A DNA stretch of 64,000 nt, taken from the NCBI RefSeq assembly GCF_001406815.1, contig NZ_CVRR01000019.1, positions 1-64,000 of the forward strand. The letters are read 5' to 3'. Numbering within the stretch: the first letter of the stretch is position 1; each line of letters begins with the position of its first letter. Both the position numbers and the translations under genes were made by a program. Shown piece after piece: positions 1,211-18,728 of this stretch. This DNA is from Roseburia faecis (GTDB lineage Bacteria > Bacillota > Clostridia > Lachnospirales > Lachnospiraceae). The notes under the pieces are model-generated. The model made no database searches and had not been told where the DNA came from. It saw only the letters and a program-made list of their open reading frames with translations.

Positions 1211-1254
1211 TACTTCGTGCAAAAAAATCGTACTTGGTGCAGAAAAGGTAAAAT
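1211..1254 (+). promoter_or_regulatory. Direct-repeat operator and promoter, copy 1
   Basis: Two 10-bp direct repeats, TACTTCGTGC (1211-1220) and TACTTGGTGC (1231-1240), lie at exact 20-bp pitch. They are followed 8 bp later by a -10-like TAAAAT (1249-1254). The second repeat covers the -35 region. The whole module, plus a downstream TGTCGATAGAAAAA, recurs upstream of agrD at 5588-5631. LytTR-family regulators bind direct repeats of about one-turn-doubled spacing near -35, so an activator site is inferred. Confidence 0.6.
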
Positions 1255-1982: not shown

Positions 1983-2069
1983 ATAAAAAGCAATAAATCA
2001 CTTGGACCGTTATGGAGAGTGAGTAGATTCCGAATGACAGAGGAATGAAAATAATTGGAGGAAACGAAA

Positions 2070-2654: not shown

Positions 2655-2663
2655 TTCAATTAA

Positions 2664-3251: not shown

Positions 3252-3295
3252 AGTATGCAATTAAAATAAGGTCTATAATTTGGAGGAAAATATCT

Positions 3296-5267: not shown

Positions 5268-5587
5268 GATAATACTTTGAAAGTATGCAGAAAAGTCTGA
5301 AAGATATCGAGGAAAATCATGTAAGAGGTAATGATAGACTTATTTAGGTAGGTAAGCAATTTTCGGATTTAAAGCAGTAACAGAAAATTAAAATTGTAGA
5401 TAAGCAAATAAAATAATAGAAAAAATTATATGCATCTAATCCATTTGTGGTTTAGGTGCTATTTTTTTGACAATATGAATGCGATCGCTCGTAATATCAA
5501 TATGTTTATCAATAAAAATATATGAAGTAACAAAACAGATGATATTATATTCATCAGCATTTTGGCTTTTTAATAAGTGAAAAGTCT
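5268..5587. other. 320-bp intergenic region
   Basis: AT-rich sequence with no supported gene. A minus-strand open frame covers 5436-5684, but it starts inside the agrD ribosome site and has no ribosome site of its own. The part at about 5440-5570 has a protein-like composition and may be the remains of a decayed minus-strand gene. Confidence 0.3.
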
Positions 5588-5631
5588 TACTTCGTGCAAA
5601 AAAATCGTACTTGGTGCAAAAAAGGTAAAAT
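5588..5631 (+). promoter_or_regulatory. Direct-repeat operator and promoter, copy 2 (upstream of agrD)
   Basis: TACTTCGTGC (5588-5597) and TACTTGGTGC (5608-5617) lie at 20-bp pitch. The -10-like TAAAAT is at 5626-5631, 8 bp after the second repeat, as in copy 1 at 1211-1254. A TGTCGATAGAAAAA block follows in both copies. Its position before agrD1-agrB fits an autoinduction promoter. Confidence 0.65.
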
Positions 5632-5682
5632 TTTATAAGATGCTTGTCGATAGAAAAAGAAAAAATAAGGAGGTTTTCAAGC

Positions 5683-5829
5683 ATGAAAAAACTTAATGAT
5701 GTAGCATTGAAATTACTTGCAAAAGCAGCATATGCAAACGCAGAGAAAGAGGCAAATTCAGCGTGCCTGTTTATTGGCTATCAGCCTAAAATGCCACAGA
5801 AAGTAAAAGAACTGAAAGAAAGAAAATAA
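5683..5829 (+). CDS. agrD: AgrD-like cyclic peptide autoinducer precursor 1
   Basis: A 48-residue pro-peptide. It has an N-terminal amphipathic leader (MKKLNDVALKLLAKAAY), a Cys at position 28 followed by a hydrophobic stretch (SACLFIGY), and then the charged tail QPKMPQKVKELKERK. The Cys, hydrophobic core and QPxxP tail are the layout of cyclic lactone autoinducer precursors that AgrB trims and cyclises. The ATG at 5683 follows AAGGAGG with good spacing; an upstream TTG would absorb that site. It is 9 bp upstream of agrB and directly downstream of operator copy 2. Confidence 0.85.
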   Translation: MKKLNDVALKLLAKAAYANAEKEANSACLFIGYQPKMPQKVKELKERK

Positions 5830-5838
5830 TATTTTCCT

Positions 5839-6417
5839 ATGGACAAATTGCTGAAAAATGTTCTATCTTGCATGAGGACAAAAGGACTTCTGGATGAAAA
5901 TGAGGAAGATGTATATCGCTTTGGCTTAGAATGCTTATTGTTAGAGGTGGTACATTACTTGTCATACATAGTAATTGGTTTTGCTATGCGAATGATAATG
6001 CCCATGATTGTAACTGCAATGGTGTTAATACCATTGCGTAGAAAATCGGGTGGCTTTCATGCGAGAACAAGGAGTGGATGCTATTTATTTTCATGTTCCA
6101 TAGTTGTTGCGGTATGTTTATTGGATAAAATCATTTTTCCACTATGGTTATGTACTATAACTACATTTGGGGCAAATGCAATTATATTTGCATTTGCTCC
6201 AATAGAAAATGAAAATCGAACATTAGATCAAGAGGAACAGAAAAAATTTAGAAAACAGGCGTTAATAATTTTAGTATTGGCAGATATGGCAATTATTATA
6301 TCACACAAAATTCATATTGAAGTATGCCAGTGGTTATTAAACGGTATGATAGTTGCTGCACTACTGAATTTGTGTGGAAAAATTCAGACAAAATGCAAAT
6401 TAGAAAAAATATGGTAG
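5839..6417 (+). CDS. agrB: AgrB-like peptide-processing membrane endopeptidase
   Basis: A 192-residue polytopic membrane protein that cleaves and cyclises AgrD pro-peptides and helps export the product. The conserved catalytic pair is present as His74 and Cys81, in GGFHARTRSGC, seven residues apart as in staphylococcal AgrB. At least four hydrophobic segments surround this loop, and the basic RRKSGG lead-in is typical. It follows agrD1 closely with a weak ribosome site, which suggests translational coupling. A second AgrD gene 250 bp downstream may be a second substrate. Confidence 0.9.
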   Translation: MDKLLKNVLSCMRTKGLLDENEEDVYRFGLECLLLEVVHYLSYIVIGFAMRMIMPMIVTAMVLIPLRRKSGGFHARTRSGCYLFSCSIVVAVCLLDKIIFPLWLCTITTFGANAIIFAFAPIENENRTLDQEEQKKFRKQALIILVLADMAIIISHKIHIEVCQWLLNGMIVAALLNLCGKIQTKCKLEKIW

Positions 6418-6479
6418 GAACTATTGCTAAAGAGTGGAAAAAGGTAACAAAAAATTGTTTCCAATAAAAAATTATCGTT

Positions 6480-6677
6480 GTGTTGGAACAAACATACTTG
6501 TATAGACGAGAAGTTTTGAAATCGCTTTACAGGAGGGGCATAATACTTGGTTGTGTTATGTTAGAGACAGATAGGGTTTACATTAGTTACATGGCAATAG
6601 CTGTTATATTATGTGCAGCTTTGCTGTGTATAGCAAAAATTTTTAAACAGGAGGTGAGAGAGAATGAAGCAGGTTAA
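6480..6677 (+). CDS. Small membrane protein between agrB and agrD2 (uncertain)
   Basis: A frame of up to 65 codons with a GTG start. A shorter start at ATG 6558 gives about 39 residues. The C-terminal half has one clear transmembrane helix (YMAIAVILCAALLCIAKIF) followed by charged residues. It overlaps agrD2 by 14 bp, and the agrD2 ribosome site lies within it, so translation may be coupled. No family is recognised. Small helical membrane proteins do occur in agr-like loci, but this could be chance. Confidence 0.35.
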   Translation: MLEQTYLYRREVLKSLYRRGIILGCVMLETDRVYISYMAIAVILCAALLCIAKIFKQEVRENEAG

Positions 6678-6804
6678 TAAGAAAGTGTTGAAGGTTGTAG
6701 AACGTGTCATGAGAAAAGAAGCTGTATATGGGATAGATGGATTTCCACCTGCGTGTTTAGGAATATGGCATCAGCCGAAACGTCCGAACATTAAAAAAAG
6801 GTAA
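6664..6804 (+). CDS. AgrD-like cyclic peptide autoinducer precursor 2
   Basis: A 46-residue pro-peptide, easily missed by length cut-offs. The leader MKQVNKKVLKVVERVMRK is amphipathic. Cys31 lies in PPACLGIWHQPKRP, which aligns with the ACLFIGYQPKMP of AgrD1: Ala-Cys, then four mostly hydrophobic residues, then QPKxP. The tail NIKKR is basic. CAGGAGGTGAGAGAGA precedes the ATG. The different core (LGIW against LFIG) predicts a distinct cyclic signal. Both precursors presumably share the single AgrB in the window. Confidence 0.8.
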   Translation: MKQVNKKVLKVVERVMRKEAVYGIDGFPPACLGIWHQPKRPNIKKR

Positions 6805-6867
6805 AAGGTTATTGAAAATAATGTTCAAATTGTTGTACAAAATAAGCTTAGAAAGGCGGGAATTGAT

Positions 6868-8313
6868 ATGAAAAATAAATTTATAACAACAGTGGTTGCG
6901 ACAGCATTGGCATTAACAATGACATTTTCATTGGCTAATGGAATGGATGTTAAAGCAGCAGAAATCACAGAGGATTCTTTAGTCGCAGCAGAAGATACTA
7001 ATGTTGGAAATGAATCGGTGGATATCCAGCAACAGGAACCTGTAGAAATTTCAGAATTGGAAACAACCGAAAATAATGACTTATCGAAATCGTCAGAAAG
7101 TATTACAGTAGATGAAAGTATTGCAGAGGATATTTTGGCTACACAAGCTGATACTGCGGTTGTAGTCGGTACGGTTAGTGACTATTTGACAGCAAAGGGC
7201 GATGCAAAACTTTATAATATTAATTTGCCAGCAGGGGTATATTTGCAAGCACAGTTAACAACGCCTGCTAATGCAGATTTGGATTACGATTTGTATTTAT
7301 TGGATGCAGAAGGCAATATTTTAACGGGCTCAGATTATTATACTTATATTAATGGCACCGCAGGTACATTGCCGGAAGCGTTAGGCTATATAACATCAGG
7401 TGATACAGCAACATATTATTTGTATGTATTAGCATCTGAGGGCGGAAGTGTAAGTGAATCATTCACATTGGATTATTCAGTAAGTACAGCGTGTGATTCT
7501 TATGAGATTGACGAGTCTGTAAGACAGGCATTAGCATTTACATATGGAGCAGGAGGGGCTTATATTGAATCAAGAAATTTAAGTTCTCCGATTGATAATG
7601 ATTGGTATGTAATTACAGTGCCAAGCAGTAGAATTTATGACAAATTAAAAATTTCTGCTACTACAGCTTCAACAAATACCTGTTCTGTAGAAGTATATCA
7701 GAATGTTGCATCAGAAGGGTATCAAATGAAACGAGTAGGCAGCGGAAACACTATTTCTGTTTCGTCAGGAAAATATTATATTAGAGTTTCCAATGCAAAA
7801 ACTATGGAGAATTTTGATGATTTGGACATTCAGAATTATAAATTGTCTATTACTCCTATTTTGAAGGCTACAGGTATTGTTATAACTGATCTTAAAGGTT
7901 CAGAAGGGTTAAATAAGGTTGTTAATTATCCTGGATATGGAGCACATTTCAGAACGCAGGGATCTGGAACATTAACTGTTTATGGAGTGCTGACAGCAAC
8001 AGACAGTTCGACGGGTGTAACGTATGCAGTTGGGGGAGAGCAGATTAACGGATTATATTATAGTCCGGCATGGGAGGCTAATAATACCTCTGCGAATGCA
8101 ATAAGGCGAGGTACAGGTACTACAGACTCAAGTGGTAAATTTGAAATTGATATTTCTTTACCACCTGGAATTGGTGTATATTCGTATTATGGTTCAACAT
8201 CCACTCATTATTTTGATATATGTGGAGTTTCTGTATCGCCAAGTGATGATAGTAGCATAAGTGCTTCAGAGACTATTTTCCATTTGGCATATACTATGTA
8301 TCATCCGTTTTAA
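6868..8313 (+). CDS. Secreted multi-domain protein with PPC-like beta domains
   Basis: A 481-residue exported protein. The signal peptide MKNKFITTVV has a hydrophobic core and ends near VKAAE at about residue 32. An acidic Glu/Ser/Thr linker follows to about residue 95. Two repeats then resemble bacterial pre-peptidase C-terminal (PPC) beta-sandwiches. They have the pattern of a polar strand, YDLYLLDAEGN, and a Tyr-rich closing strand (TYYLYVLAS; KYYIRVSNA). The last 130 residues form another beta-rich segment. No protease or LPXTG anchor is seen. The ribosome site is GAAAGGCGGG. It follows agrD2 by 63 bp and may be controlled with it. Confidence 0.65.
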   Translation: MKNKFITTVVATALALTMTFSLANGMDVKAAEITEDSLVAAEDTNVGNESVDIQQQEPVEISELETTENNDLSKSSESITVDESIAEDILATQADTAVVVGTVSDYLTAKGDAKLYNINLPAGVYLQAQLTTPANADLDYDLYLLDAEGNILTGSDYYTYINGTAGTLPEALGYITSGDTATYYLYVLASEGGSVSESFTLDYSVSTACDSYEIDESVRQALAFTYGAGGAYIESRNLSSPIDNDWYVITVPSSRIYDKLKISATTASTNTCSVEVYQNVASEGYQMKRVGSGNTISVSSGKYYIRVSNAKTMENFDDLDIQNYKLSITPILKATGIVITDLKGSEGLNKVVNYPGYGAHFRTQGSGTLTVYGVLTATDSSTGVTYAVGGEQINGLYYSPAWEANNTSANAIRRGTGTTDSSGKFEIDISLPPGIGVYSYYGSTSTHYFDICGVSVSPSDDSSISASETIFHLAYTMYHPF

Positions 8314-8343
8314 TGTGTAAATTGTAACTAAGAAAATATAAAA

Positions 8344-8377
8344 ATAGGTTGTCACACGATTTGGTGTGTCAACCTAT
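8344..8377. promoter_or_regulatory. Strong hairpin between two accessory genes
   Basis: ATAGGTTGTCACAC (8344-8357) pairs with GTGTGTCAACCTAT (8364-8377), 13 of 14 bases, around a 6-nt loop. No T run follows, so it is not a classical terminator. It lies 24 bp before the next start and could be an attenuator, a processing site or a protein-binding palindrome. Confidence 0.5.
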
Positions 8378-8401
8378 TATGCAAAATACAGGAGGGTTAA
8401 A

Positions 8402-9334
8402 ATGAAGATAGCTACCCAACATTATCAGGACAGCGTGATCACTCCGTATGGTAATAATCACTGGAATGGAAAAGAGAAAATTGATATTTCTAAGGAAAAA
8501 GATGATGCGGTTATTCTGGAAATAAGTGCAAAAGGTAAAAGAGCAATACAGCTAAAAGAGAAAAACGAATTTGAGCAGAATATTGTTCAAGTGGATAAAA
8601 GTGCAGATGATTTACCAGCATATTCAGGAATGTATGATGTTGACAAGACGATATCGTCTTCTCTTGAAAATTGTAGCAAAGAGGAACAGGGATTTGTATA
8701 TGATATTATCCGCGAAAATTTTCTTATTGGAAATGGCAGCTCTGTGAGTGAGGAGGAGCGTCAGGCTAATATATCATTAGGAATGAAAAAAGCGGAATAT
8801 GCTGCAAATAATTTTATATCAGAAGATAAAAAAAGTTCCTTTTTGGATGCAATGGAATCTATAGCAAAGCTGGCAAGTGCCGGAAAGATGAATGCAGATG
8901 GAAATATGGATTACGGGGTAAAAAAAGGAAATTATTTAGGACATGGTAGTAATCTTGTTTACACTACAGATGGTCTTGATATGATGAGGTCAATGGATTC
9001 AGGTGCATATGATGAATATCAAAGGATCAGTAGAGAAAGTAGTAATTCTGATAGACAGCTTAACACTTTAAAATACTTGACAAATTGGTATTCTAATGCT
9101 GTAACGAAAAATCCGCATATGGTAGAGAAATATGAAGCTAAATCGGATGAGTATATTGAAAAAAATGTAAAAAATCAAAAAGTAGATTCAATTTTTTCGG
9201 ATTTGAAAACAGAAAGTAAGTCTGCTTTTATTGAAAGTTTGAAAGCATTTCAAGCACAGAATCCTAATTTCTTATCCAATATCGTTAATAAGGAATTGTC
9301 AAGAAAGTATTGGGCATATGGTATTATCGCCTAA
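8402..9334 (+). CDS. Hypothetical protein, 310 aa
   Basis: Unrecognised soluble protein. The ATG at 8402 follows CAGGAGGGTTAAA, so the earlier in-frame start inside the hairpin region is rejected. The N-terminus is polar (MKIATQHYQDSVITPYGNN). The middle is rich in Lys, Glu, Asn and Ser and mostly helical. No signal peptide, membrane helix or catalytic motif is seen. The style resembles the proteins at 2070-3251. It overlaps a small downstream frame by up to 17 bp. A function is not assigned. Confidence 0.6.
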   Translation: MKIATQHYQDSVITPYGNNHWNGKEKIDISKEKDDAVILEISAKGKRAIQLKEKNEFEQNIVQVDKSADDLPAYSGMYDVDKTISSSLENCSKEEQGFVYDIIRENFLIGNGSSVSEEERQANISLGMKKAEYAANNFISEDKKSSFLDAMESIAKLASAGKMNADGNMDYGVKKGNYLGHGSNLVYTTDGLDMMRSMDSGAYDEYQRISRESSNSDRQLNTLKYLTNWYSNAVTKNPHMVEKYEAKSDEYIEKNVKNQKVDSIFSDLKTESKSAFIESLKAFQAQNPNFLSNIVNKELSRKYWAYGIIA

Positions 9335-9353
9335 GGGTGAGGATAAATATGAG

Positions 9354-9551
9354 ATGAAGTATGTTCCGGAAGATTTTGACAGGTATGATCAAGGATTTTT
9401 TGGAAGAGCGAAACCAGAATATATTATTGTTAAGGGAGAGTGTTTGGAAAAATTAAAACAGCAAGGGTATGAAATGGACTGTTGGCAAAAAGGTATTCCG
9501 TTGGCGATAAATAATAAACATCCTGATAGCATAAAATTAAAGGGATTTTGA
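9354..9551 (+). CDS. Small hypothetical protein, about 65 aa
   Basis: The frame is open from 9318, but GGTGAGGATAAATATGAG supports the ATG at 9354. The product is about 65 residues, charged and soluble (KYVPEDFDRYDQGFFGRAKPE), and no family is recognised. The stop is at 9551. It follows the 310-residue hypothetical gene with 19 bp between stop and start, so the two are probably one transcript. If the start at 9318 is used the protein is 77 residues and overlaps its neighbour. Confidence 0.45.
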   Translation: MKYVPEDFDRYDQGFFGRAKPEYIIVKGECLEKLKQQGYEMDCWQKGIPLAINNKHPDSIKLKGF

Positions 9552-9655
9552 CAGAATATGCAAAGTATTACATGAAAATGTCAAAGGATTACAGTTTCCT
9601 AAAACCCATAATAATTTCTGATATAATGCGATAAGTCAGAAAGGATGATGGGGCT

Positions 9656-10000
9656 ATGGGGAAAAGAGAGCACATATACAAAATTATTGCAGAGAATATC
9701 AGAAAAGAACGAAGAAGGCTTGGAATTACGCAGGCAGAGCTTGCAGAACGGGCGGATGTATCATTGGATACTATCAAAAGTGTTGAAAATGGCAGAAGGG
9801 CAATGAGTCTTGATACATATTTGAATATTGTTCATGCATTGGAGTCATCGCCTACGGTTCTGATGAGCCAGCAGCACCCAGAAAAACACATTGAGCGTTT
9901 TGCATTTATGATGAATCAGTGTGACGAAAGAGAAATAGAATTTGCATTACATATGATTGAACAAATATTAAGAGGACAGGAAGATTATCTGAGTGAATAG
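9656..10000 (+). CDS. XRE-family helix-turn-helix regulator
   Basis: A 114-residue DNA-binding protein. Residues about 12-66 are a Cro/CI-type HTH (LGITQAELAERADVSLDTIKSVENGRR). A short helical C-terminal region (ALHMIEQILRGQEDY) probably dimerises. AAGGATGATGGGG lies before the ATG, and TATAAT at 9622-9627 is a candidate -10. It converges with the minus-strand mini-gene just downstream. Its target is unknown; it may control the hypothetical genes to its left or itself. Confidence 0.8.
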   Translation: MGKREHIYKIIAENIRKERRRLGITQAELAERADVSLDTIKSVENGRRAMSLDTYLNIVHALESSPTVLMSQQHPEKHIERFAFMMNQCDEREIEFALHMIEQILRGQEDYLSE

Positions 10001-10024
10001 ACGGGTAGTTATCCTGTCCTTTGT

Positions 10025-10258
10025 CTATGACTCTTTTGCAAATTTTTCAGCGAGATGGTATATGATTTCTTCAATGGTGGGAGTTTCATTTTCACATGGA
10101 AAGTCTGTCCAGAAGCGTTGCATTTGTGGATCAGGGCTTTTTAAAGCAATAGAAACTGCCCACCCAATTTCCTGTTGGACTTCTTCTTTTGTGATTCCTT
10201 CTTTTTCGGCAATGATTTTCAAATATTTATCAACAGAGTATGTGTTTTTATCATTCAT
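10025..10258 (-). CDS. Spo0A C-terminal-like mini-protein, 77 aa
   Basis: A 77-residue acidic protein with no signal or membrane segment. The segment IAEKEGITKEEVQQEIGWAV can be aligned by eye with the Spo0A DNA-binding helices ([20 protein letters not shown], present in this window near 63898). It has the same hydrophobic spacing but different charges. Small Spo0A-C-like proteins are common on clostridial accessory DNA. The tail TPTIEEIIYHLAEKFAKES is helical. It could bind DNA weakly or interfere with Spo0A-type dimers; this is inference. It converges with the XRE gene and diverges from the next one. Confidence 0.5.
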   Translation of the reverse strand: MNDKNTYSVDKYLKIIAEKEGITKEEVQQEIGWAVSIALKSPDPQMQRFWTDFPCENETPTIEEIIYHLAEKFAKES

Positions 10259-10506
10259 AGTGTTGTTGTGAATCCTTTCTGAAAAGGGTATCTGCGGGCA
10301 AATTGTCAGGTGATTGAATTGTCCCGGTTGAATACCATAAAAGTAAAACAGATAATCCGTTCTATATTACATAATAACCTTGAGAGCTGTTTTCTATGCA
10401 GATTATGGCTATTTTCTATTCTATCATATACATACAGTATGGTGCATACACACACCATATCATTATAGGACACTCTTGCGTAGAATACAAGGAGGAGGTC
10501 TTTGTA
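10259..10506. promoter_or_regulatory. Divergent intergenic region with candidate operator
   Basis: This separates the minus-strand mini-gene from a plus-strand Cro-like gene. TATGGTG (10438-10444) and CACCATA (10453-10459) form a 7-bp inverted repeat about 50 bp before the plus-strand start, a plausible site for a Cro-like dimer. The ribosome site AAGGAGGAGG precedes 10507. The rest shows nothing recognisable. Confidence 0.4.
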
Positions 10507-10719
10507 ATGATAGTATATGACAGGTTATGGATTACACTCAAGAAGAAAAATATTAGCCAGTATGCACTAATTAAAGATTATGGAATAGATAAAGCACAGT
10601 TACAGCGATTGCGAAAGAATATGGTCGTAAAAACGGTAATCCTAAACAGATTATGTTCCATACTTGATTGTAAGATAGAGGACATCATGGAGTTTGTGCC
10701 GGATGAGGATATTAAGTAA
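10507..10719 (+). CDS. Cro/CI-type HTH regulator, 70 aa
   Basis: A single-domain helix-turn-helix protein. The sequence MIVYDRLWITLKKKNISQYALIKDYGIDKAQLQRLR, read as two adjoining segments, is typical of the small HTH family found on clostridial mobile elements. The tail CKIEDIMEFVPDEDI closes the fold. The ATG at 10507 follows AAGGAGGAGG by 9 bp and is preferred over a long upstream extension. A perfect terminator begins at its stop codon, so it is a single-gene unit. Likely autoregulated through the inverted repeat at 10438-10459. Confidence 0.75.
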   Translation: MIVYDRLWITLKKKNISQYALIKDYGIDKAQLQRLRKNMVVKTVILNRLCSILDCKIEDIMEFVPDEDIK

Positions 10720-10764
10720 AGAGATATTTCCAAAATGTAATGGTTTGGAAATATCTCTTTTTTT
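10720..10764 (+). terminator. Rho-independent terminator
   Basis: AGAGATATTTCCAAA (10720-10734) pairs exactly with TTTGGAAATATCTCT (10744-10758), followed by a T run to 10764. It starts one base after the stop of the HTH gene. Confidence 0.9.
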
Positions 10765-10909
10765 AATCCGCAAATATTTATATTCTTGGTATTAAGGTGT
10801 ACAATATTCCACCTGAAATAGCTGGTTTAGTCACTCTTACAAAAGATTCGCTTACGGTACAATGAATACAGCTTAAGCAAATATATAAGGTGCCGGAAAA
10901 GAGTGGAAG

Positions 10910-11233
10910 GTGTACTACGATATTGTTAATAGTGGAGAAAGAATAAAAGAGTTGCGTGCGGCAAGAAGAATGACAAGACAGCAGCTTGCCGAGCAGATTG
11001 GATTGTCAGTGGATGCTCTGCGGAAAATTGAAGCTGGTGTAAATGGAGCAAAAATAGATACGCTGATTAGTATTGCTGAATTGTTTCATATAACGTTGGA
11101 TTATCTTGTGTGTGGGTGTGAAAGAAAGGCAGAAGTCGATGATCTGCTGGTTGGTCTGAAGGAGAAGGAAGTACAGTTTATCCGGAATATGGTATTAAAT
11201 GCCGTTGACAATATGAAACTTCTGACAGAATAA
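10910..11233 (+). CDS. XRE-family helix-turn-helix regulator
   Basis: A 107-residue regulator with a GTG start. Residues about 8-62 form the HTH (MTRQQLAEQIGLSVDALRKIEAG), followed by a conserved FHITLDYLVCG segment that is typical of clostridial mobile-element repressors. The C-terminal tail (KEVQFIRNMVLNAVDNMKLL) is helical and probably a dimer interface. A terminator follows at once. It stands just left of the structured RNA and recombinase module and may be the repressor of that element. Confidence 0.75.
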   Translation: MYYDIVNSGERIKELRAARRMTRQQLAEQIGLSVDALRKIEAGVNGAKIDTLISIAELFHITLDYLVCGCERKAEVDDLLVGLKEKEVQFIRNMVLNAVDNMKLLTE

Positions 11234-11236
11234 AAA

Positions 11237-11277
11237 AGTCGGATTGCATTTTGGATGATGCAGTCCGGCTTTTTTTA
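11237..11277 (+). terminator. Rho-independent terminator
   Basis: AGTCGGATTGCAT (11237-11249) pairs with ATGCAGTCCGGCT (11258-11270), all 13 positions counting G-T pairs. Seven Ts follow. Confidence 0.85.
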
Positions 11278-11322
11278 TAAGGATTTGGAACAGGTGGGAG
11301 TGTTACTCTTAGTTCAAAAGAG

Positions 11323-11773
11323 TGTCGGTTACTGTAGAAGATGCGTGGTGTCAGTTATACTCTGTTCAGGTTCTGAGAAAAGAACCGTTGAATATTGAAA
11401 ACAGAATAGGACACGCATATCCCACGAGCTTATATCGCCTTGTCTATGACAGGGTGGCAGAATCCCATTTCGTGCGATGACTATCCTCAGAGCTGTAGCC
11501 GATTATGAGAAACGTAACAGCAGGAGCCTTTAAGGATAAGAGCAGAGGGTTGTGCCTACCGGGTTAGCAGCCGGAGGTAATGAGATAATAAGTGCACCTG
11601 AATTTCAGCAAAACGCATTTTCAGAGAGTGGCTACTTTCGTAAGTCCAGATGGGCAGGAAACTACGAAGTGTTTGTGGCTGGCAAAGGATATGTTACCCG
11701 ATACGGGGATGGTTAAGAAACCGGGAAGATAGTATTTTATCTTCCCACACAAACTGATTTATGGTCACCGACA
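11323..11773 (+). ncRNA. Candidate large structured RNA, class not identified
   Basis: The 600 bp between 11278 and 11884 has no coding frame but dense structure. A long-range helix closes it: TGTCGGTTACT (11323-11333) with GGTCACCGACA (11763-11773), 10 of 11 positions. Inside are several local hairpins: GGTTCT/AGAACC (11369-11386), CCTTGTC/GACAGGG (11438-11454), CCTaCCGG/CCGGAGG (11555-11577), ACTT/AAGT (11634-11645), CCCG/CGGG (11697-11707) and GGGAAGATA/TATCTTCCC (11723-11746). A hairpin at 11305-11323 lies just outside. It has no group II domain V, tmRNA or RNase P signature that I can see. Candidates include large phage and element RNAs of the ROOL/GOLLD kind, or a new class. It may be the 5' leader of the element genes that begin at 11885. 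Confidence 0.6.
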
Positions 11774-11884
11774 GAAAAGAAATGTTTAGGTGTGATGGTG
11801 TGGAGAGTACAGATAAGTCAGCTTATGTGAGGAGATAAAGTGCGCACAGTATCAAATCAATATTATTTATAAGGAGATTTTAAG

Positions 11885-12307
11885 ATGGAAAGAGCAATTA
11901 TATATTATGCAAAAACAGGATTAGAGGCTACAGATCATTTTGTGCCGAAGTTGCTTGAAAAGTATTGTCAGGATAATGGCTATGAAATTGTAGCTATGCT
12001 TTCAGAGCCTGCTTCTACAGAAGGAGTTTCATTTCCGATGAAATATGCCATTATTGGTTTAAATATGGAAGAAGATGTTAATACAATCATAACACTTTCA
12101 AAGGATATGATTGGTGCAACAGATGAGACCGTTATTGATACACTTGGAAAACTCAGCGAATATGATATCTATGTGGAGGATATTAATGGAGAACTTGAAG
12201 AGTGTTATGAGATGATGTACAAAGAGCCTGTTCAGGAAAGTGATATAAGAGGGCTGGTGCTTGATACGGTATCAAAGTTCTATCATAACATCAGGGACGG
12301 CAGATAG
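11885..12307 (+). CDS. Resolvase-fold-like element protein without catalytic Ser, 140 aa
   Basis: First protein gene after the structured RNA, with AAGGAGA 8 bp before the ATG. The N-terminal pattern RAIIYYAKTGLEATDHFVPKL followed by GYEIVAMLSEPAS follows the beta-alpha-beta opening of serine resolvase catalytic domains. However, the position of the nucleophilic Ser is occupied by other residues (AKTG). The C-terminal half is acidic and helical. It may be a recombination accessory or directionality protein, but this is inferred from fold-like pattern and context only. It is 8 bp upstream of a second protein of the same style. Confidence 0.5.
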   Translation: MERAIIYYAKTGLEATDHFVPKLLEKYCQDNGYEIVAMLSEPASTEGVSFPMKYAIIGLNMEEDVNTIITLSKDMIGATDETVIDTLGKLSEYDIYVEDINGELEECYEMMYKEPVQESDIRGLVLDTVSKFYHNIRDGR

Positions 12308-12315
12308 GAGGCAAT

Positions 12316-12636
12316 ATGCAGGATTCCAAAGAAAAGCAGTGTCTGATATTTGTAAGGAATAATGCAAATGATACAGCTGACCGTATCGAGGCATATGCAA
12401 AAAAGTCCGGCATGGAAGTTGTTGAGACAGTTTTCAATACAGATAAAAAAGCGGTTGAACGATTAAGATATTATATTGAAAGAGATGCCATTATCTGTGT
12501 GCTAGTAAGAGATGTGGTAGACATTTCAATGGAACTTAATGAGATTAAAGCTGTAATGACACTTGCAGCGGAACATGGAATCAGTATTAATGCAGAGAGC
12601 AGGGGCTATGAACCTGCTCTCATTTCTTTTGAATGA
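12316..12636 (+). CDS. Resolvase-fold-like element protein, 106 aa
   Basis: A small soluble protein whose opening CLIFVRNNANDTADRIEAYA, followed by GMEVVETVF, resembles the first beta-alpha-beta unit of serine recombinases. Again the active-site Ser region is replaced (VRNNAND). The rest (DAIICVLVRDVVDISMELNEI) mimics the second strand and long helix of that fold. It appears paralogous in layout to the protein just upstream. The ribosome site is TAGGAGGC. The stop is 1 bp before the next start, which indicates coupled translation. Confidence 0.5.
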   Translation: MQDSKEKQCLIFVRNNANDTADRIEAYAKKSGMEVVETVFNTDKKAVERLRYYIERDAIICVLVRDVVDISMELNEIKAVMTLAAEHGISINAESRGYEPALISFE

Positions 12637-12637
12637 T

Positions 12638-12775
12638 ATGACAGAAGAAAATAGAAAATTAAAACTGATTATATTTCCGGGCGAAACAGTAGTGATTGAT
12701 GAATATGGGAAACGGATTGTTGCCTGTCCGACAGAGGATGAGGCAGAAGAATATATCAGGGAACAGGAGGAATGA
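12638..12775 (+). CDS. Small acidic protein, candidate antitoxin
   Basis: A 45-residue protein, MTEENRKLKLIIFPGET onward, with a beta-rich start and an acidic helical tail (PTEDEAEEYIREQEE). The ATG at 12638 follows the previous stop by one base. It ends 5 bp before the PemK/MazF-like toxin gene, the usual place of an antitoxin. It is shorter than typical MazE proteins and has no clear DNA-binding domain, so antitoxin function is inferred from position. Confidence 0.4.
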   Translation: MTEENRKLKLIIFPGETVVIDEYGKRIVACPTEDEAEEYIREQEE

Positions 12776-12780
12776 CATAG

Positions 12781-13167
12781 ATGAAACTGAACAGGGGCGA
12801 TATTGTTATTGCAAATCTGGAGTCAGTAAGTAAAGGGAGCATTCAGAAGTATACAAGACCTTATATTATTATCTCAAATAACAAGGCAAATCAGTATTCA
12901 CCGGTTGTCACAGCAGTAGCCATGTCCACAAAAACATGGAAAAAGAAATATCTGCCAACCCACTGTCCAATACCGGCTGCAAAGGTAAAGGTTACTGACA
13001 CAGATTTTGAGGTATTTGACAGTATGGCATTATGTGAGCAGATTGTATCCATTGATGTAAATGTCCAGATTGAGAGGGTAGTTGCTTCAATTTCAGATAC
13101 GGAACTACTTGATAAGATTACTGAATGTGTAAAAATCCAGATTGGGGCATATGAAAAGTACAATTAA
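12781..13167 (+). CDS. PemK/MazF-family toxin-like endoribonuclease
   Basis: A 128-residue protein with the PemK/MazF core. It opens with LNRGDIVIANLE, and KYTRPYIIISNNKANQYSPVVTAV contains the conserved RP and N residues of the RNA-binding loop. A central strand is ALCEQIVSID, and the end is a helical segment. MazF enzymes are sequence-specific mRNA interferases. The nearest candidate antitoxin is the 45-residue protein just upstream. On a mobile element it may stabilise the insertion. Similar proteins are also seen without an antitoxin in clostridial elements. Confidence 0.8.
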   Translation: MKLNRGDIVIANLESVSKGSIQKYTRPYIIISNNKANQYSPVVTAVAMSTKTWKKKYLPTHCPIPAAKVKVTDTDFEVFDSMALCEQIVSIDVNVQIERVVASISDTELLDKITECVKIQIGAYEKYN

Positions 13168-13199
13168 ATATTTCCGGGGCATTTGCTCCGGGTTACATA

Positions 13200-13228
13200 G
13201 CCACCTGTATTTTATGGGTGGCATTTTT
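13200..13228 (+). terminator. Terminator or attenuator hairpin
   Basis: GCCACC (13200-13205) pairs with GGTGGC (13217-13222), followed by ATTTTT. It ends the toxin unit and lies 22 bp before the next start codon, so it may attenuate read-through into the recombinase genes. Confidence 0.6.
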
Positions 13229-13249
13229 ACTGAAAGGGGGATAGATTTT

Positions 13250-13498
13250 ATGACAGCAGAAGAATACAGAGCATTGCTTGATACTGATTTTAGTGATGTC
13301 AAGATTAATGAAATGCCCGATATGGCATCTTATCATGCTGATCTGAATGATACGATTGAAAAGAGACAGCAGAAGTTTATAAGAAAAGTTGGAAATCCCT
13401 ATATGATGAGAGTGGGGAAGATGAAAGTTAAAGTAAGCTTTGCCAATAATGGAGTTTCCATAGAAGAAGCTTTCAAGAATATGCTGCTTACAGTTTAG
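13250..13498 (+). CDS. Small element-encoded protein, 82 aa
   Basis: Start at ATG 13250 after GAAAGGGGG. The product (MTAEEYRALLDTDFSDVKIN at its start) is soluble. It has a short acidic N-terminus, a basic middle (EKRQQKFIRKVGNPY) and a closing segment (VSIEEAFKNMLLTV). Proteins of this type commonly precede large serine recombinases in clostridial integrative elements, but the function is not known. An imperfect hairpin separates it from the first recombinase. Confidence 0.6.
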   Translation: MTAEEYRALLDTDFSDVKINEMPDMASYHADLNDTIEKRQQKFIRKVGNPYMMRVGKMKVKVSFANNGVSIEEAFKNMLLTV

Positions 13499-13530
13499 AA
13501 TCTTTTTTCAGAATCATATGGAAAATGAAA

Positions 13531-13582
13531 GGGAGTTGTGCTATGATATGTTCAAGGACTAAATGAATATGGCATAACTTCC
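13531..13582 (+). promoter_or_regulatory. Imperfect inverted repeat before the recombinase genes
   Basis: Bases 13531-13545 (GGGAGTTGTGCTATG) pair with 13568-13582 (TATGGCATAACTTCC) over 15 positions, counting four G-T pairs. A T-rich stretch follows. It could be an attenuator for the recombinases. Large serine recombinase attachment sites are also imperfect inverted repeats next to the integrase gene, so an att site is an alternative. Confidence 0.4.
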
Positions 13583-13637
13583 TTTGATATTTTAGTTGGG
13601 TACATCTGACGTAGAATATTTAAAGGAGTGTTGCGAT

Positions 13638-15329
13638 ATGAGTAAACAAATCTCAAAAATCTATCATGCAGCCATCTACGTTAGATTATCTAAGGAGGAT
13701 GGCGATGTTTCTACCAGCGCAAAAGCTGAGAGTAATAGTATTTCAAATCAAAAGGATTTCATCCGAAATTTCCTTGCAGACAAAAAAGACATTAGAATAG
13801 TTAAAGAATATGTGGATGATGGTTATTCCGGCTCTAATTTTGACCGTCCGTCTTTTCAGACGATGATGGAAGATATTAAGCGAGGAGTAATTGATTGTGT
13901 GGTGGTAAAGGATCTTTCACGTTTTGGACGTGAGTATATTGATTCAGGTCGATACATCGAAAGATTATTTCCGGCTCTTGGTGTAAGGTTTATTGCAATC
14001 AATGATAACTATGACAGTGTGACTGGAAAGTCACAGGGTGATGAGATTATTATTCCGTTTAAAAACCTGATCAATGATGCATATTGCAGGGATATCAGTA
14101 TAAAGATACGAAGCCATTTGGATGTAAAGAGAAAAAATGGTGAGTATATCGGTGCATTTGTTCCCTATGGGTATGAAAAATCGGATGATGATAAACATAA
14201 GCTGGTTATTGATATTTATGCAGCCGGTATTGTGAAGGAAATTTTTCGGCTAAAGCTTCACGGAATGAGTCAGGATGCAATAGCAACACAGTTGAATAAT
14301 GAGGGTGTGCTTGCACCTATGGAATATAAGCAGAGCACAGGGAGCGGTTATCAGACCGGATTTTTACAGAATGAAAAATCGGTATGGAGTTCAGTCACGG
14401 TCCGCAGGATTCTTGAAAATGAGATTTACATTGGAAATCTTGTTCAAGGCAAAAGAACGACACCAAATCATAAAGTGAAGCAGGAGGTTGTTAAGCCGGA
14501 ATCTGACTGGATAAGAATCGAAAAAAATCATGAGCCGATTATTAGTGACAGGGATTTTGAGATTGTTCAAAGGTTGTTGGGAATGGATACGAGAATATCT
14601 CCGGATTCAGATATGGTCTATAATCTTTCAGGTATTGCAGTATGTGCAGACTGTGGTTCACCAATGACAAGAAAAATTACAACAGCAGGTGATAAGAAAT
14701 ACGCTTACTATATCTGCTCTAATCATAAATTGACAAAGCAGTGTTCACAGCACTCAATATCAGTATCGTTATTAGAGGATACGGTGCTTGAAATGTTAAA
14801 GCTTCATATCAAAAACGTAATGAATCTGGAAGAAATACTTGATTATATTGGAACAATTCCTTTCCAGCAGCTTGATGTAAAAAGTCTTGAAGCAAGAAAA
14901 CAGAAAAAACTTGAGGAAGTTGAGAAGTGTAAAAGACTGAAAACTTCACTGTATGAAGATATGAAGGACGGAATTCTTACTAAAGAAGAATATCTTGAAC
15001 TTCATGAGGCATATCTGAAAAAAGCAAAAGAGGGAGAAGAAATAATTCGCCAGATTGAGAGAGACATTGCTTTAATTTTTGAGGAGAAGGATGATAAGCA
15101 TCTCTGGATGAATTATTTTACCGAATACAAGGATATTAAGGAACTGACCAGGGACGTGGTTGTAAAACTGATTTCTGAGGTAAGGGTTTCAGAGAATAAA
15201 GAGATTGAAATCGTATTTGACTTTGATGATTGTTATAAGAAGTTATTAGAATCAGTCGAAAAACTTGGTTATCAAGTAGATAAAGAACCGGGTGGACAAT
15301 TAAATATCAGCAGAAGGGAGGCTGTGTAA
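13638..15329 (+). CDS. Large serine recombinase 1
   Basis: A 563-residue site-specific recombinase. The N-terminal resolvase domain has the nucleophilic Ser in YVRLSKEDGD and the conserved VVVKDLSRFGRE active-site helix. The middle recombinase domain has the RRILENEIYIGN motif. A zinc ribbon follows (CADCGSPMTRK and YICSNHKLTKQC). The C-terminus is a long coiled coil. ATG 13638 is chosen because TAAAGGAG lies 9 bp upstream; a longer TTG version would bury it. It is the first of three tandem recombinases and ends 1 bp before the second. Confidence 0.92.
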   Translation: MSKQISKIYHAAIYVRLSKEDGDVSTSAKAESNSISNQKDFIRNFLADKKDIRIVKEYVDDGYSGSNFDRPSFQTMMEDIKRGVIDCVVVKDLSRFGREYIDSGRYIERLFPALGVRFIAINDNYDSVTGKSQGDEIIIPFKNLINDAYCRDISIKIRSHLDVKRKNGEYIGAFVPYGYEKSDDDKHKLVIDIYAAGIVKEIFRLKLHGMSQDAIATQLNNEGVLAPMEYKQSTGSGYQTGFLQNEKSVWSSVTVRRILENEIYIGNLVQGKRTTPNHKVKQEVVKPESDWIRIEKNHEPIISDRDFEIVQRLLGMDTRISPDSDMVYNLSGIAVCADCGSPMTRKITTAGDKKYAYYICSNHKLTKQCSQHSISVSLLEDTVLEMLKLHIKNVMNLEEILDYIGTIPFQQLDVKSLEARKQKKLEEVEKCKRLKTSLYEDMKDGILTKEEYLELHEAYLKKAKEGEEIIRQIERDIALIFEEKDDKHLWMNYFTEYKDIKELTRDVVVKLISEVRVSENKEIEIVFDFDDCYKKLLESVEKLGYQVDKEPGGQLNISRREAV

Positions 15330-15330
15330 T

Positions 15331-17013
15331 ATGGCAAGAAAAAGCAGAAAAAATATGATGCTACAGGAAAACACAGCCTTACCGGATAAAGAGAAGAAGG
15401 TACTTTTTAAGGCTGGATTATATGCAAGACTGTCCCATGAAAAGGAAGAGAACATTGAGAGAGGGACAATCGAAACACAGATGGAACTTATGAAGAATTA
15501 TGTCAAAGATCACGAAGATATTGTAATTGAAGAGGAATATTATGATGCTTCCTTTACCGGTACTAATTTTGAAAGACCGGATTTTAAGCGAATGCTTGAG
15601 GATGCAAAAACAGGAAGAATTAACTGTATTATTGTTAAGGATTTATCGAGACTTGGAAGAAATTATGTGGAGATGGGGAACTACATTGAAAGAGTGTTTC
15701 CTTTTCTCAATGTAAGATTCATTGCTGTTACGGATGATTTTGACTCGTTCAGACCGGTCACAGACCTTATGATGCCTTTGAAAAATATCGTAAATGAGTT
15801 TTATACAAAGGATATTTCCAAGAAAGTTTCAACTGCACATCGTAGAAAATGGACTACTGATGAATATATGTGCGGTTTTGCTCCATATGGATATCTGAAA
15901 TCCAAGACGGAGAAGAACAGAATTGTTGTGGATGAAGCAACTGCTGGAAATGTCAGGCTTATTTATAAATTGTTTTTAGATGGCAAAGGTTACACACCAA
16001 TTGCAAAATATCTGAATGAGCAGGGAATAATGTCACCATTGATGTATTTAAAATCTCTTGGTTATCAGCAGAATGTAAGAACCAATGGTGTATGGACCAA
16101 AACAACAGTCAAGTCAATACTGACAAATCAGGCTTATATTGGTTCGGCGGTGCATGGGAAAGTAGTAATTGAGAAATACAATAATATTCCACTCCATGCA
16201 ACAGATCCAAGTGAATGGGTCGTTGTTGAAAATACGCATGAGCCGCTTATCGACAAAAAGACATTTGAAAAGGCACAGGAAAGAGTAAAGGAAATCTCGG
16301 ATGCTTATTTTGCAAAAGAGTTTACAAAACACCCACCTAATGAAATGAATCTGCTAAAGGGAAAAATCGTATGCGGAGACTGTGGCAAGGGAATGAGACT
16401 TTCTCCAAGAACAACAAAATCGTATGTATATTTTTGTGGAACTTTTTCAGATGGTATTAATCCGGCATGTTCAAGACACAAAATTGATCAGGAGGAAGTC
16501 AACAAAGCTGTCTTTGCTCAGATTTCAAATCATATGCGTTGCTGTATTGACGCATTAAAAGTGATACGGGAATTAAATGCAAGAAGCAGCGGACTGAAAA
16601 AATACGATGTGTATGAAAAAGCCATTACCAGACAGCGCAGGGAACTGGAGAAAGTAAACCGCAAGTTCTCTGAGTTATATGGAGATTACTCAGAACATTT
16701 GATTAATGAGAGCGAATATCTGACATTAAAACAGCAGTATCTTCTAAAAAGCGAAGCTTTGAAGAAGGAGATTGATAATCTTTTAGTATCTCAGAACTTG
16801 TATTCAAAGAATTATAAGATTGATGCGGACTGGGAAAATCTTATCAATAAATATCTGAAATGCAGAAAACTCAACAAAGAGCTGGCAGATGCATTTGTTG
16901 ACAAGGTACAGGTGTTTGAAGGTGGCAGAATTTCCGTAAATCTGGTTTATGATGATTGTCTGGAAGAACTGTTACAGGTAAAAAATAAGAGAGAAGGTGA
17001 TTTGAATGAGTAA
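15331..17013 (+). CDS. Large serine recombinase 2
   Basis: A 560-residue recombinase with a basic N-terminal tail (MARKSRKNMM) before the catalytic domain. The nucleophile is in LYARLSHEKEE and the active-site helix in IIVKDLSRLGRNY. The recombinase domain carries VKSILTNQAYIGS. The zinc ribbon has CGDCGKGMRLS and YFCGTFSDGINPAC. A coiled-coil tail completes it. All catalytic residues look intact. It overlaps the third recombinase by 8 bp, so the three are translated from one message. Confidence 0.92.
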   Translation: MARKSRKNMMLQENTALPDKEKKVLFKAGLYARLSHEKEENIERGTIETQMELMKNYVKDHEDIVIEEEYYDASFTGTNFERPDFKRMLEDAKTGRINCIIVKDLSRLGRNYVEMGNYIERVFPFLNVRFIAVTDDFDSFRPVTDLMMPLKNIVNEFYTKDISKKVSTAHRRKWTTDEYMCGFAPYGYLKSKTEKNRIVVDEATAGNVRLIYKLFLDGKGYTPIAKYLNEQGIMSPLMYLKSLGYQQNVRTNGVWTKTTVKSILTNQAYIGSAVHGKVVIEKYNNIPLHATDPSEWVVVENTHEPLIDKKTFEKAQERVKEISDAYFAKEFTKHPPNEMNLLKGKIVCGDCGKGMRLSPRTTKSYVYFCGTFSDGINPACSRHKIDQEEVNKAVFAQISNHMRCCIDALKVIRELNARSSGLKKYDVYEKAITRQRRELEKVNRKFSELYGDYSEHLINESEYLTLKQQYLLKSEALKKEIDNLLVSQNLYSKNYKIDADWENLINKYLKCRKLNKELADAFVDKVQVFEGGRISVNLVYDDCLEELLQVKNKREGDLNE

Positions 17014-18556
17014 GATAACTGCTATGTATATTCGCCTTTCTATGGAAGATGAAGATGTATCATTAAATCGGAAAGAGGAGAGTAACAGTATATCCAGCCA
17101 GCGGGAATTGTTAAAAGCATATATTGAAAATCATTCGGAGCTTAAGGATACGAAGGTACAGGAATACTGTGATGATGGATTTACCGGAACAAAATTTGAA
17201 AGACCAGGCTATATGAAGCTTATGGAGGATATCCGGGCTGAAAAAATATCATGCATTGTTGTAAAGGATTTATCCAGACTCGGAAGGGATTATATTGAAG
17301 TTGGAAGTCTTTTGGAGCAGATACTTCCACTTTATCAGGTGCGGGTTATTGCAGTTAATGACAATTATGACAGCGATAACTATGATGGTTCCACCGGTGG
17401 TATGAATATTGCGTTTAAGAATTTAATCTATATGCTTTATAGCAGGGACTTGTCCAATAAAATATGTTCTGCAAAGCACACAAGGATACTGAAGGGGGAG
17501 AACATTAGTGGTCAGTTAAGGTATGGATATGTCAAAGATCCAAATGATAAGCATAAGATTATTGTAGATCCGGAAGCAGCAGAAGTGGTTAAGCTGATAT
17601 TTGAACTGACCGCACAGGGCAAAAGAAAAACGGAAGTGGCAAATTACTTAAATGCTCACGGTATTGATACACCATCCGCATATAAGAAGAGAAAAGGAAG
17701 CAAAAATTTTTTCCATGCAGTTGAAGTGAAAAGCTTGTGGAGTACTTCTTCTATCCACGATATATTAAACGATGAAGTTTATCTTGGAAAACTGATATGG
17801 AATAAAACAAAGAAGAGGGTAGGCAGCAATAACACTTCAACCTATGTGCCTAAAGACGAATGGATTGTGATAGAGAATTGTCATGAACCTATTATTACTC
17901 AGAAATTATTTGATACGGCACATGCTAATTCAAAAAAATATATTCGTCCAAAGCGTGGTAAGAGAAACTATAATCCGTTTTATTATTGTGGGGTATGTGG
18001 CAGAGCCTTGGTACCCAGCAAAAGGGTAAAAGGTGACATTCTTCTTTGTTCCTCGTCCAGAATTGAGGAAAATTCTCCATGCAAAAGCAACAGGGTGGAA
18101 ATTGCCAAGGTCGAAGATACAATCATGAAAATTGTAAATATGTATGCAACAGCTTATCTGGATGAGAAAGGAATAAAGAAAGCTGGTAAATCGAAAGAAG
18201 TATCTCCGGAAGAAAAGATTGCAACACTTGAAAAGAAGGTGAAGAGCCTCAGCAGTAAAAAGATGATGTTGTATTCTGATTATAAGGATGACAAGCTCTC
18301 AAGAGAAGAGTATGTCAAGCGTTCAAAGGCGATGGTGGAGCAGATTGATGAATTGCATCAGGAAATCGAACAGCTTAAAACAGAAATACCGCCAGAAGAT
18401 AATTCTTCTAGTAAGTTTGAGACACAGTTAGAAAGTATCATCAATATGGAATCTTTTGACAGAGAGAAAATCCAGAAGATAATCAAAAAAGTGATTATCA
18501 ATGGAGAGGACAATATAGAGATTGTATGGAATACAGATGATCCATTTTTCAAGTAA
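17006..18556 (+). CDS. Large serine recombinase 3
   Basis: A 516-residue recombinase. The nucleophile is in MYIRLSMEDEDVS and the active-site segment is CIVVKDLSRLGRDY. The recombinase motif HDILNDEVYLGK is present. The zinc ribbon has CGVCGRALVPS and LLCSSSRIEENSPC, followed by the coiled coil. It overlaps recombinase 2 by 8 bp and is followed by a strong terminator. Triplets of large serine recombinases are a known arrangement in clostridial integrative elements; how the three divide the work is not evident here. Confidence 0.92.
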   Translation: MSKITAMYIRLSMEDEDVSLNRKEESNSISSQRELLKAYIENHSELKDTKVQEYCDDGFTGTKFERPGYMKLMEDIRAEKISCIVVKDLSRLGRDYIEVGSLLEQILPLYQVRVIAVNDNYDSDNYDGSTGGMNIAFKNLIYMLYSRDLSNKICSAKHTRILKGENISGQLRYGYVKDPNDKHKIIVDPEAAEVVKLIFELTAQGKRKTEVANYLNAHGIDTPSAYKKRKGSKNFFHAVEVKSLWSTSSIHDILNDEVYLGKLIWNKTKKRVGSNNTSTYVPKDEWIVIENCHEPIITQKLFDTAHANSKKYIRPKRGKRNYNPFYYCGVCGRALVPSKRVKGDILLCSSSRIEENSPCKSNRVEIAKVEDTIMKIVNMYATAYLDEKGIKKAGKSKEVSPEEKIATLEKKVKSLSSKKMMLYSDYKDDKLSREEYVKRSKAMVEQIDELHQEIEQLKTEIPPEDNSSSKFETQLESIINMESFDREKIQKIIKKVIINGEDNIEIVWNTDDPFFK

Positions 18557-18576
18557 GATGGATGGTTACAGAGTTT

Positions 18577-18608
18577 GGAGTGCCGAGAAAATGTGGCACT
18601 CCTTTCTT
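18577..18608 (+). terminator. Rho-independent terminator after the recombinase operon
   Basis: GGAGTGCC (18577-18584) pairs exactly with GGCACTCC (18595-18602), followed by TTTCTT. It closes the recombinase operon. Confidence 0.85.
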
Positions 18609-18728
18609 CTGCAAGCATAAATATTGCTTTCAATATACTGCAATAGCAGGTATAATGGGAAGTGATATTTGAGGGTACAAAAAAATCAATTTTTTTTTGG
18701 TCTGGGGTTGACACGAGCAGGGCAGCCG
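18609..18728. other. Probable right junction of the mobile element
   Basis: No gene. TATAAT at 18651-18656 could be an outward promoter. A run of A then T (18679-18699) could serve as a terminator for the convergent nuclease gene. Base composition becomes visibly more GC-rich from here to the right, so the element boundary is placed in or near this gap. No flanking direct repeat was identified. Confidence 0.35.

Follow-up and report, generated by a model that had tools for sequence, protein, structure and literature searches.

In the window, as the 64,000 nt stretch of Roseburia faecis DNA analysed here is termed, a region devoid of genes separates a repressor-like gene from an operon that includes three large serine recombinase genes, raising the question of what this region contributes. 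An earlier note on this DNA had proposed that it specifies a large structured RNA, placed where a recombinase element begins. Computational analysis, as described below, leaves no doubt that the region encodes a real, conserved RNA of the plus strand that belongs to a new family. This RNA probably heads, as 5' leader, the recombinase operon of an integrative and conjugative element, where it would serve as a cis-acting processive antiterminator, much like canT of Tn916.

A conserved structured RNA of the plus strand

Between positions 11233 and 11885, no ORF of at least 60 amino acids (ATG, GTG or TTG start) was found on either strand, in agreement with the earlier note, which had also correctly placed the region between a repressor-terminator unit and the first gene of the element (Table 1). 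The hairpin ending the repressor unit was found in our own scan and went unreported by a second terminator scan. When positions 11300-11800 were folded and compared with dinucleotide shuffles, a z-score of -3.39 was obtained for the plus strand, with none of 100 shuffles folding as well. As the minus strand also folded better than its shuffles (z -4.19), folding energy alone cannot assign the strand. The assignment was made instead from the aligned homologues, where a plus-strand reading gave 365 G-U cells versus 61 A-C cells, identifying the plus strand as that of the functional RNA.

The alignment in question (A2) comprises 28 copies of the RNA, retained from 74 nearly full-length loci after dereplication at 93%; 84 loci, some of them fetched twice, had entered the full-length profile search. 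In earlier rounds, L003 and L012 had been left out of the alignment, and L026 and L004 out of the structure. Based on this alignment, on covariation and on full-length profile matches, the conserved body was delimited to a stretch of about 430 nt. As such, the proposal of a large structured RNA is upheld by folding and covariation, and the limits first given to it, 11323-11773, are corrected to those of the body (11409-11842).

Structure was considered in terms of a 122-pair RNAalifold model built on the 28 rows, in which 92.3% of the cells are paired; for 68 of the 122 pairs, at least one sequence has both bases changed. Covariation was scored at 0.366, as compared to 0.178 for column shuffles and 0.079-0.094 when the 3' partners were slid; the structure was derived from the same alignment, which favours it, and the slid controls nonetheless lie far lower. 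Within the main domain are found the helices 11457-11465/11547-11555, 11559-11562/11571-11574, 11598-11602/11620-11624, 11636-11647/11657-11669 and 11673-11676/11682-11685, the last four of which are covarying local hairpins that had been among those claimed in the earlier note. Changes on both sides were seen in six of the eight pairs of helix 2, in all five of helix 15 and in four of the eight of helix 12. The separate terminal hairpin (helix 21), with its variable loop, shows such changes in 19 of 25 pairs, with 91.8% of cells paired. Helix 1 (11409-11412/11840-11842), with 82.7% of cells paired, is weak and so was not relied on.

The long-range helix (11323-11333/11763-11773) thought earlier to close the RNA fared differently. 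Although 10 of its 11 positions form standard pairs, at least one equally good long-range helix was found in 92.5% of 40 mononucleotide shuffles of the 501-base region (mean 9.6, as compared to 15 observed). In favour of the helix, four near-identical loci (L004, L007, L012 and L013) keep the 5' arm and pair it with an altered 3' arm, still with 10 of 11 pairs; against this, the exact sequence of the 5' arm is missing from L005, and an equally good helix between the same two regions was found in 25 of the 28 dereplicated leaders versus 22.5 expected (20-24 in 20 shuffles). Moreover, the terminal hairpin has a poorly conserved loop, into which the 3' arm falls; the 5' arm precedes the promoter-like TATACT sequence considered below; and the helix is absent from the 122-pair structure. 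Covariation among homologues, the check set beforehand, was thus seen in the local stems, with the closing helix remaining at chance level.

Table 1. Positions of the RNA and of associated features in the window.
Feature	Position	Strand	Basis
XRE/Cro-type repressor-like gene, upstream of the RNA	10910..11233	+	HTH_3, E 9e-13
Terminator-like hairpin and T-run after the repressor gene	11236..11271	+	Own scan: 15 pairs, 6 G-C
Putative promoter -10-like TATACT (no good -35)	11356..11361	+	TATRVT enrichment in leaders
5' hairpin, GGTTCT-GAGAAA-AGAACC	11369..11386	+	Present in the window
BoxA-like head, TATTGAAAACAGAATA	11393..11408	+	Resemblance to Tn916 canT head
RNA body	11409..11842	+	A2 alignment of 28, covariation, full-length profile matches
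Main domain	11415..11694	+	Closing helix 11415-11422/11687-11694
Terminal hairpin, separate, variable loop	11737..11838	+	Stem 11737-11762/11813-11838
140-aa protein	11885..12307	+	No Pfam or NCBIfam match
106-aa small protein	12316..12636	+	Recombinases' blast cluster c0 (single linkage); no Pfam or NCBIfam match
PemK/MazF-like gene	12781..13167	+	PF02452, E 1e-20
Intrinsic-terminator-like site between PemK and DUF6870, candidate read-through target	13200..13222	+	10 pairs, 5 G-C, T-run; also in L127
DUF6870 gene	13250..13498	+	PF21757, E 6e-20
Three tandem large serine recombinase genes	13596..18556	+	Domain and NCBIfam matches
Intrinsic-terminator-like site after the last recombinase	18577..18602	+	Two scans; counterpart in L127
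Putative right end of the element (approximate)	18725	.	Identity with G052 stops

Search for known families and distribution of the RNA

A search of the whole window against Rfam 15, together with ARAGORN, returned nothing at the thresholds of these tools. The covariance search that the earlier note had suggested was extended to E values of up to 10 on positions 11230-11900, yielding six matches, each far below its cut-off. A mir-553 match (E 0.008, far below its cut-off) corresponds to the repressor terminator and was taken as chance. In line with what had been noted from the sequence, the RNA matched no tmRNA, RNase P, group I or group II intron model in Rfam, nor did ARAGORN detect a tmRNA. 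The suggested filing among the large ornate RNAs did not hold up, as no ROOL, GOLLD, OLE, HEARO or raiA match appeared at E values of up to 10 in positions 11230-11900. Nor did Rfam return a match to the int-alpA motif, an integrase-associated RNA. A ribozyme or a mobile, intron-like RNA would fit the size and ornate fold of the RNA and the near-invariant unpaired stretches seen in the alignment. As no intron or ribozyme model matches, and as the RNA occupies one fixed place before the recombinase genes in nearly all loci with room for them, such an identity is considered very unlikely.

A literature search revealed no publication on this RNA family. Thousands of RNA candidates from microbiomes are reported in PMC8040213, in the supplement of which the RNA could be present without a name.

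To describe how the RNA is distributed, several searches were combined. Blastn detected copies in five of 98 relatives, the genome of origin included, and gave matches in 25 of 397 genomes of the same family; matches with E values of 0.002-0.01 are short and probably due to chance. A covariance model of the RNA core (R1, 139 positions) matched 17 of the 397 same-family genomes, again including the genome of origin, which was also the only one matched among 391 genomes of the class. A pattern scan yielded 59 stretches from named genomes, for the most part with the labels Lachnospiraceae, Roseburia or Eubacterium, and scans of a viral collection added two contigs and then four more. The full-length profile matched all 84 loci, in 74 cases almost end to end, with E values of 1e-73 to 1e-110 for the four later viral-collection loci. 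As tandem recombinase matches were found in all six viral-collection loci, these are apparently integrative elements that were swept into a virus collection. Plasmid and phage searches with the DNA of the region gave no match. In L119, a second, partial copy of the RNA (7633-7857, minus strand) lies just upstream of the full one.

Genes accompanying the RNA

Downstream of the RNA in the window lie two small genes, PemK/MazF-like and DUF6870 genes and the three recombinase genes. The first recombinase contains Resolvase, Recombinase and Zn_ribbon_recom domains, and the second and third gave Ccr/XisF-like NCBIfam matches, all far below cut-off. The 106-aa protein, grouped by blast with the recombinases, may be a degenerate resolvase-like domain.

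The surroundings of the RNA elsewhere were considered in those 44 of the 61 pattern-scan loci that have at least 2.6 kb downstream. A large serine recombinase is encoded on the same strand downstream of the RNA in 41 of these, such that the location at the head of a recombinase element, as originally noted, is confirmed; PemK is present in 37 and DUF6870 in 36 of the 44 loci. In an overlapping first set, consisting of the window and 18 loci, the corresponding counts were 18, 14 and 11 of 19. No downstream recombinase match was found in L085, L118, L126 and L053, and in L043 and L083 the RNA is followed by a small ORF and then by a single recombinase gene.

The regular presence of PemK in the operon raises the possibility that the RNA is the antitoxin of the PemK/MazF-like protein, in a type III-like toxin-antitoxin pair. 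Against this, the tandem repeats that are a feature of type III toxin-antitoxin RNA are absent from the RNA, and L043, L050, L106 and L136 keep the RNA with no PemK match, making this role exceedingly improbable.

A further possibility is that the RNA controls the first genes of the operon through local termination or translation, be it as a riboswitch, a protein-sensing leader or an attenuator. Indeed, where listed, a close first gene begins shortly after the RNA, at +37 in the window, +26 in L136, +40 in L043 and +110 in L168. These first genes vary, however, encoding the 140-aa protein in the window, DUF6870 in L136, a 41-aa ORF in L043 and an excisionase-like protein in L168, and inspection of the 28-row alignment by eye showed no T-run after the terminal hairpin. 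A cis-regulatory leader of this sort is thus deemed unlikely, albeit worthy of consideration.

With serine recombinases as its near-constant company, the RNA might alternatively act in trans, binding recombinases or the small resolvase-like proteins and taking part in recombination as a scaffold or guide, in the manner of a bridge RNA. Small proteins of the recombinase blast cluster do lie between the RNA and the recombinases, both in the window and in several other loci. Nonetheless, two copies of the RNA accompany tyrosine integrases instead. These distant copies belong to one genome, G207 (R1 E values of 4e-9 and 9e-8; L168 and L169). In L168, in which the profile match is confined to the first two thirds of the RNA, the RNA is followed by a gene judged excisionase-like by eye and by a tyrosine integrase gene, with no serine recombinase. 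In L169, the RNA (12966-13384, minus strand) heads an operon of some 10 kb with genes that appear by eye to be secretion-ATPase-like and pilus-like, at the end of which, 9.6 kb on, lie a gene judged xis-like by eye and a tyrosine integrase gene. Both integrases match tyrosine-recombinase models below the cut-offs. The RNA therefore goes with the operon rather than with one recombinase chemistry. In addition, in G437, the one genome so considered, no match between the RNA and the ends of the element exceeded chance (longest 10 nt, as compared to up to 15 in shuffles). Taken together, a trans-acting role appears doubtful.

DUF6870 was also considered from its own side. In 29 of 30 DUF6870 loci (L138-L167), the gene lies beside a large serine recombinase match, which suggests that DUF6870 is an accessory or directionality factor. 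In L136, the RNA immediately precedes DUF6870, and in one of the 30 loci it is found further upstream; canT lies directly upstream in three, with a fourth match being weak (E 1.4e-5). As 25 of the 30 contain neither RNA within 1.5 kb upstream, the recombinase cassette needs neither. In L165 (approximately 590-1110, reverse complement), a structured leader precedes a PemK-DUF6870-recombinase set and is matched by neither RNA profile; it contains a head-like motif and, by eye, canT-like words.

Other features were seen in the vicinity. Upstream of the RNA, the Rfam HTH-XRE RNA (RF02923) was detected in L077 (2657-2731, minus strand), near a repressor-like gene, and in L127 (1-45, plus strand); no match to it was found at positions 10720-10960 of the window. 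Further upstream in the window, genes that are by eye histidine-kinase-like (3-1175), small peptide-like (5644-5829) and AgrB-like (5839-6417) are possibly quorum-sensing cargo of the element.

Layout of the element and predicted terminators

The complete genomes G437 and G487 share an element, which measures about 73.5 kb in the former (joined positions approximately 44049 to 117580) and 65 kb in the latter, some stretches being found in one copy only. Both copies are flanked by pieces of a host gene judged by eye to be flavodoxin-like. In G437, the one relative in which the transfer genes were examined, genes of mostly the same orientation extend from the left end; their products are an actin-like protein, DUF5688, a DUF3991/Toprim protein, MobC, a relaxase, a coupling protein and a TraG-type ATPase. 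The RNA and the recombinase operon lie at the right end, on the same strand as the left-end transfer genes. With the ends of the element joined, the recombinase operon would therefore come to lie upstream of the transfer genes.

The window is the start of a contig of a draft genome, with the left end of the element lying off the contig, and the junction logic thus rests on relatives. The copy in G052 shares 98-99.7% identity with positions 69-18725 of the window, apart from an insertion; as identity stops at 18725, what lies in the window is apparently the right-hand 18.7 kb of the element. The insertion, of about 1.9 kb, is found in the G052 copy at window position 12629.

Within the left end, a same-strand terminator-like site of 16 pairs is predicted 2.26 kb from the end. 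Of six strong sense sites in the first 26 kb of the G437 element, five have counterparts in G052, as judged by eye from their place and sequence, as compared to none of six antisense sites; G052 contains eight sense and six antisense sites in all, and its element is 78-91% identical to that of G437 there. In both relatives, a strong terminator is predicted from sequence between the joined ends and the DNA-processing genes. Inside the recombinase operons of 25 loci, 22 sense versus 31 antisense strong terminators were counted, both above the shuffles (3.2). Given the lack of sense bias there, terminator bias was not used as an argument.

The head region and comparison with canT

The sequence just before the body was examined in the 28 dereplicated leaders. 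TATRVT occurs 25-75 nt before a conserved GGAC in 14 of them, as compared to a mean of 3.9 and a maximum of 8 in shuffles, and the TATACT of the window may accordingly mark a promoter; a two-hexamer promoter scan did not report the site, which has no -35 box alongside. The 5' hairpin of the window looked conserved by eye. A perfect stem of at least five pairs was found at its place in nine of 28 leaders, which is not above chance (shuffles: mean 5.3, maximum 11), and the hairpin was therefore dropped from the shared features.

Just before GGAC, the leaders contain a stretch like TTTGAAAACTGAATA. When compared with the canT head of the Tn916-type element of pCF10, TGTTCTTTGAAAACTGAATA, the 28 leaders gave a mean best match of 13.6 of 20 positions, as compared to a mean of 10.6 in dinucleotide shuffles and 11.4 for the highest of 200. 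In 19 of the 28, this best match is located where expected, and eight heads score only 11 of 20, near the shuffle mean. In Firmicutes, the boxA of rRNA operons lies in the 16S-23S spacer. This spacer, located through the 3' end of 16S rRNA in one of four genomes, contains in that genome (G437) TGTTCCTTGAAAACTGCATA, to which the leaders gave a mean match of 12.7 of 20 (shuffles 10.2, maximum 10.9). The exact boxA pattern was absent from the genome of origin and occurred once in four complete relatives, where a reversed control pattern occurred twice.

According to PMC11658703, canT is a 452-nt RNA of Tn916 located just before xis, for which cis-acting, orientation-specific and processive antitermination was demonstrated experimentally. 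In that description, canT is needed for expression of the transfer genes after excision and not for excision itself, and secondary-structure predictions for it were held by its authors to be hard to interpret. The boxA-like head as a feature of canT was derived here from canT-like sequences rather than from PMC11658703; the head is contiguous in four of six such sequences and interrupted in two. Copies of canT precede xis-int in the Tn916-type element of pCF10 and, as a shorter match, in a vanB-carrying element. Upstream of tndX lies a canT-like match (87% identity over 65% of the query). Two further matches, both short (80-82% identity over 26-28% of the query), are found before genes with the annotation recombinase family protein.

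The two RNAs are alike in length, at about 450 nt, and in their position upstream of right-end recombination genes. The boxA-like heads resemble that of canT above shuffles as a set, the resemblance being weak in single members, the window included. Both RNAs point in the same direction as the transfer genes once the ends are joined, with terminators between, and both are found with xis-int as well as with serine recombinases. A canT profile listed 10 of 29 of the present RNAs; nine of these matches are to the head, and the remaining one, elsewhere, is at noise level. Four of the nine head matches have E values below 0.01 (best 2e-4), and the head of the window an E value of 1.4; of 290 shuffled sequences, three gave scores, the best being -3.6 bits. 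With the head removed, the canT profile listed nothing among the RNAs, and the R1 model gave no match to canT. Unlike the head, then, the body of canT, of about 400 nt, has no sequence match to the body of the present RNA. As the body fails the similarity test, the RNA was not filed as canT.

The two also differ in that antitermination has been shown for canT alone, and in their hosts. Whereas canT was located in enterococci, in other Bacillota plasmid records and in genomes of the same family (L158, L161, L162, L056 and L134), the present RNA is found mostly in Lachnospiraceae-type genomes. In two loci, a canT-like RNA lies within about 5 kb of the present RNA on the other strand (L056, 3197-3676; L134, 2984-3458), pointing to neighbouring or nested elements. 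Overall, the comparison with canT describes the RNA better than does a place among the large ornate RNAs.

Proposed mode of action and relation to other antitermination systems

According to the preferred reading, that of a leader acting as a processive antiterminator, RNA polymerase would start just upstream of the RNA and transcribe the boxA-like head and the folded body of some 430 nt. The nascent RNA would then modify the polymerase, whether or not the head recruits host Nus factors, such that intrinsic terminators are ignored. In the integrated element, transcription could in this manner pass the terminator-like site between PemK and DUF6870 and reach the recombinase genes. Once the element is excised and its ends are joined, the polymerase would pass the site after the last recombinase and the left-end terminators, entering the relaxase and secretion genes. 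Expression of the transfer genes would thereby be coupled to excision.

Other antitermination systems offer partial parallels. As described in PMC8955417, conAn of pLS20 is bipartite, comprising the RNA conAn2 and the protein ConAn1; by this description, it resembles the proposed system in providing antitermination where a long transfer operon, interrupted by many internal terminators, begins, and differs in employing a protein as processivity factor. Antitermination RNAs named in PMC11658703 include put of HK022 and EAR of the B. subtilis eps operon. They are structured leader RNAs that cause polymerase to disregard terminators, and in this they resemble what is proposed here. Both are much smaller than the present RNA, and EAR has an Rfam entry, which gave no match to this RNA. 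BoxA-mediated antitermination in rRNA operons is similar in that the head resembles the spacer sequence of a relative given above; rRNA leaders are not known to have a 430-nt body.

More tentatively, and with less confidence than the antitermination reading itself commands, canT and the present RNA might both belong to a class of modular leaders of Gram-positive conjugative elements, in which a boxA-type head that recruits rRNA antitermination factors is combined with exchangeable bodies of about 400 nt and with any recombinase. The leader of L165 hints at still further bodies. If such a class exists, conjugative elements would borrow the antitermination machinery of rRNA operons to couple excision to transfer.

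For Lachnospiraceae, the RNA offers a marker for large, poorly annotated elements. With the conserved pairs, the head and the candidate terminators now named, the effect of a large RNA on polymerase becomes testable using two dissimilar bodies that would do the same job. Should the proposed role be correct, the antitermination switch that was discovered in 2024 in Tn916 would be a control layer of gut conjugative elements rather than a peculiarity of one family, and would have been built on at least two occasions around different RNA bodies.
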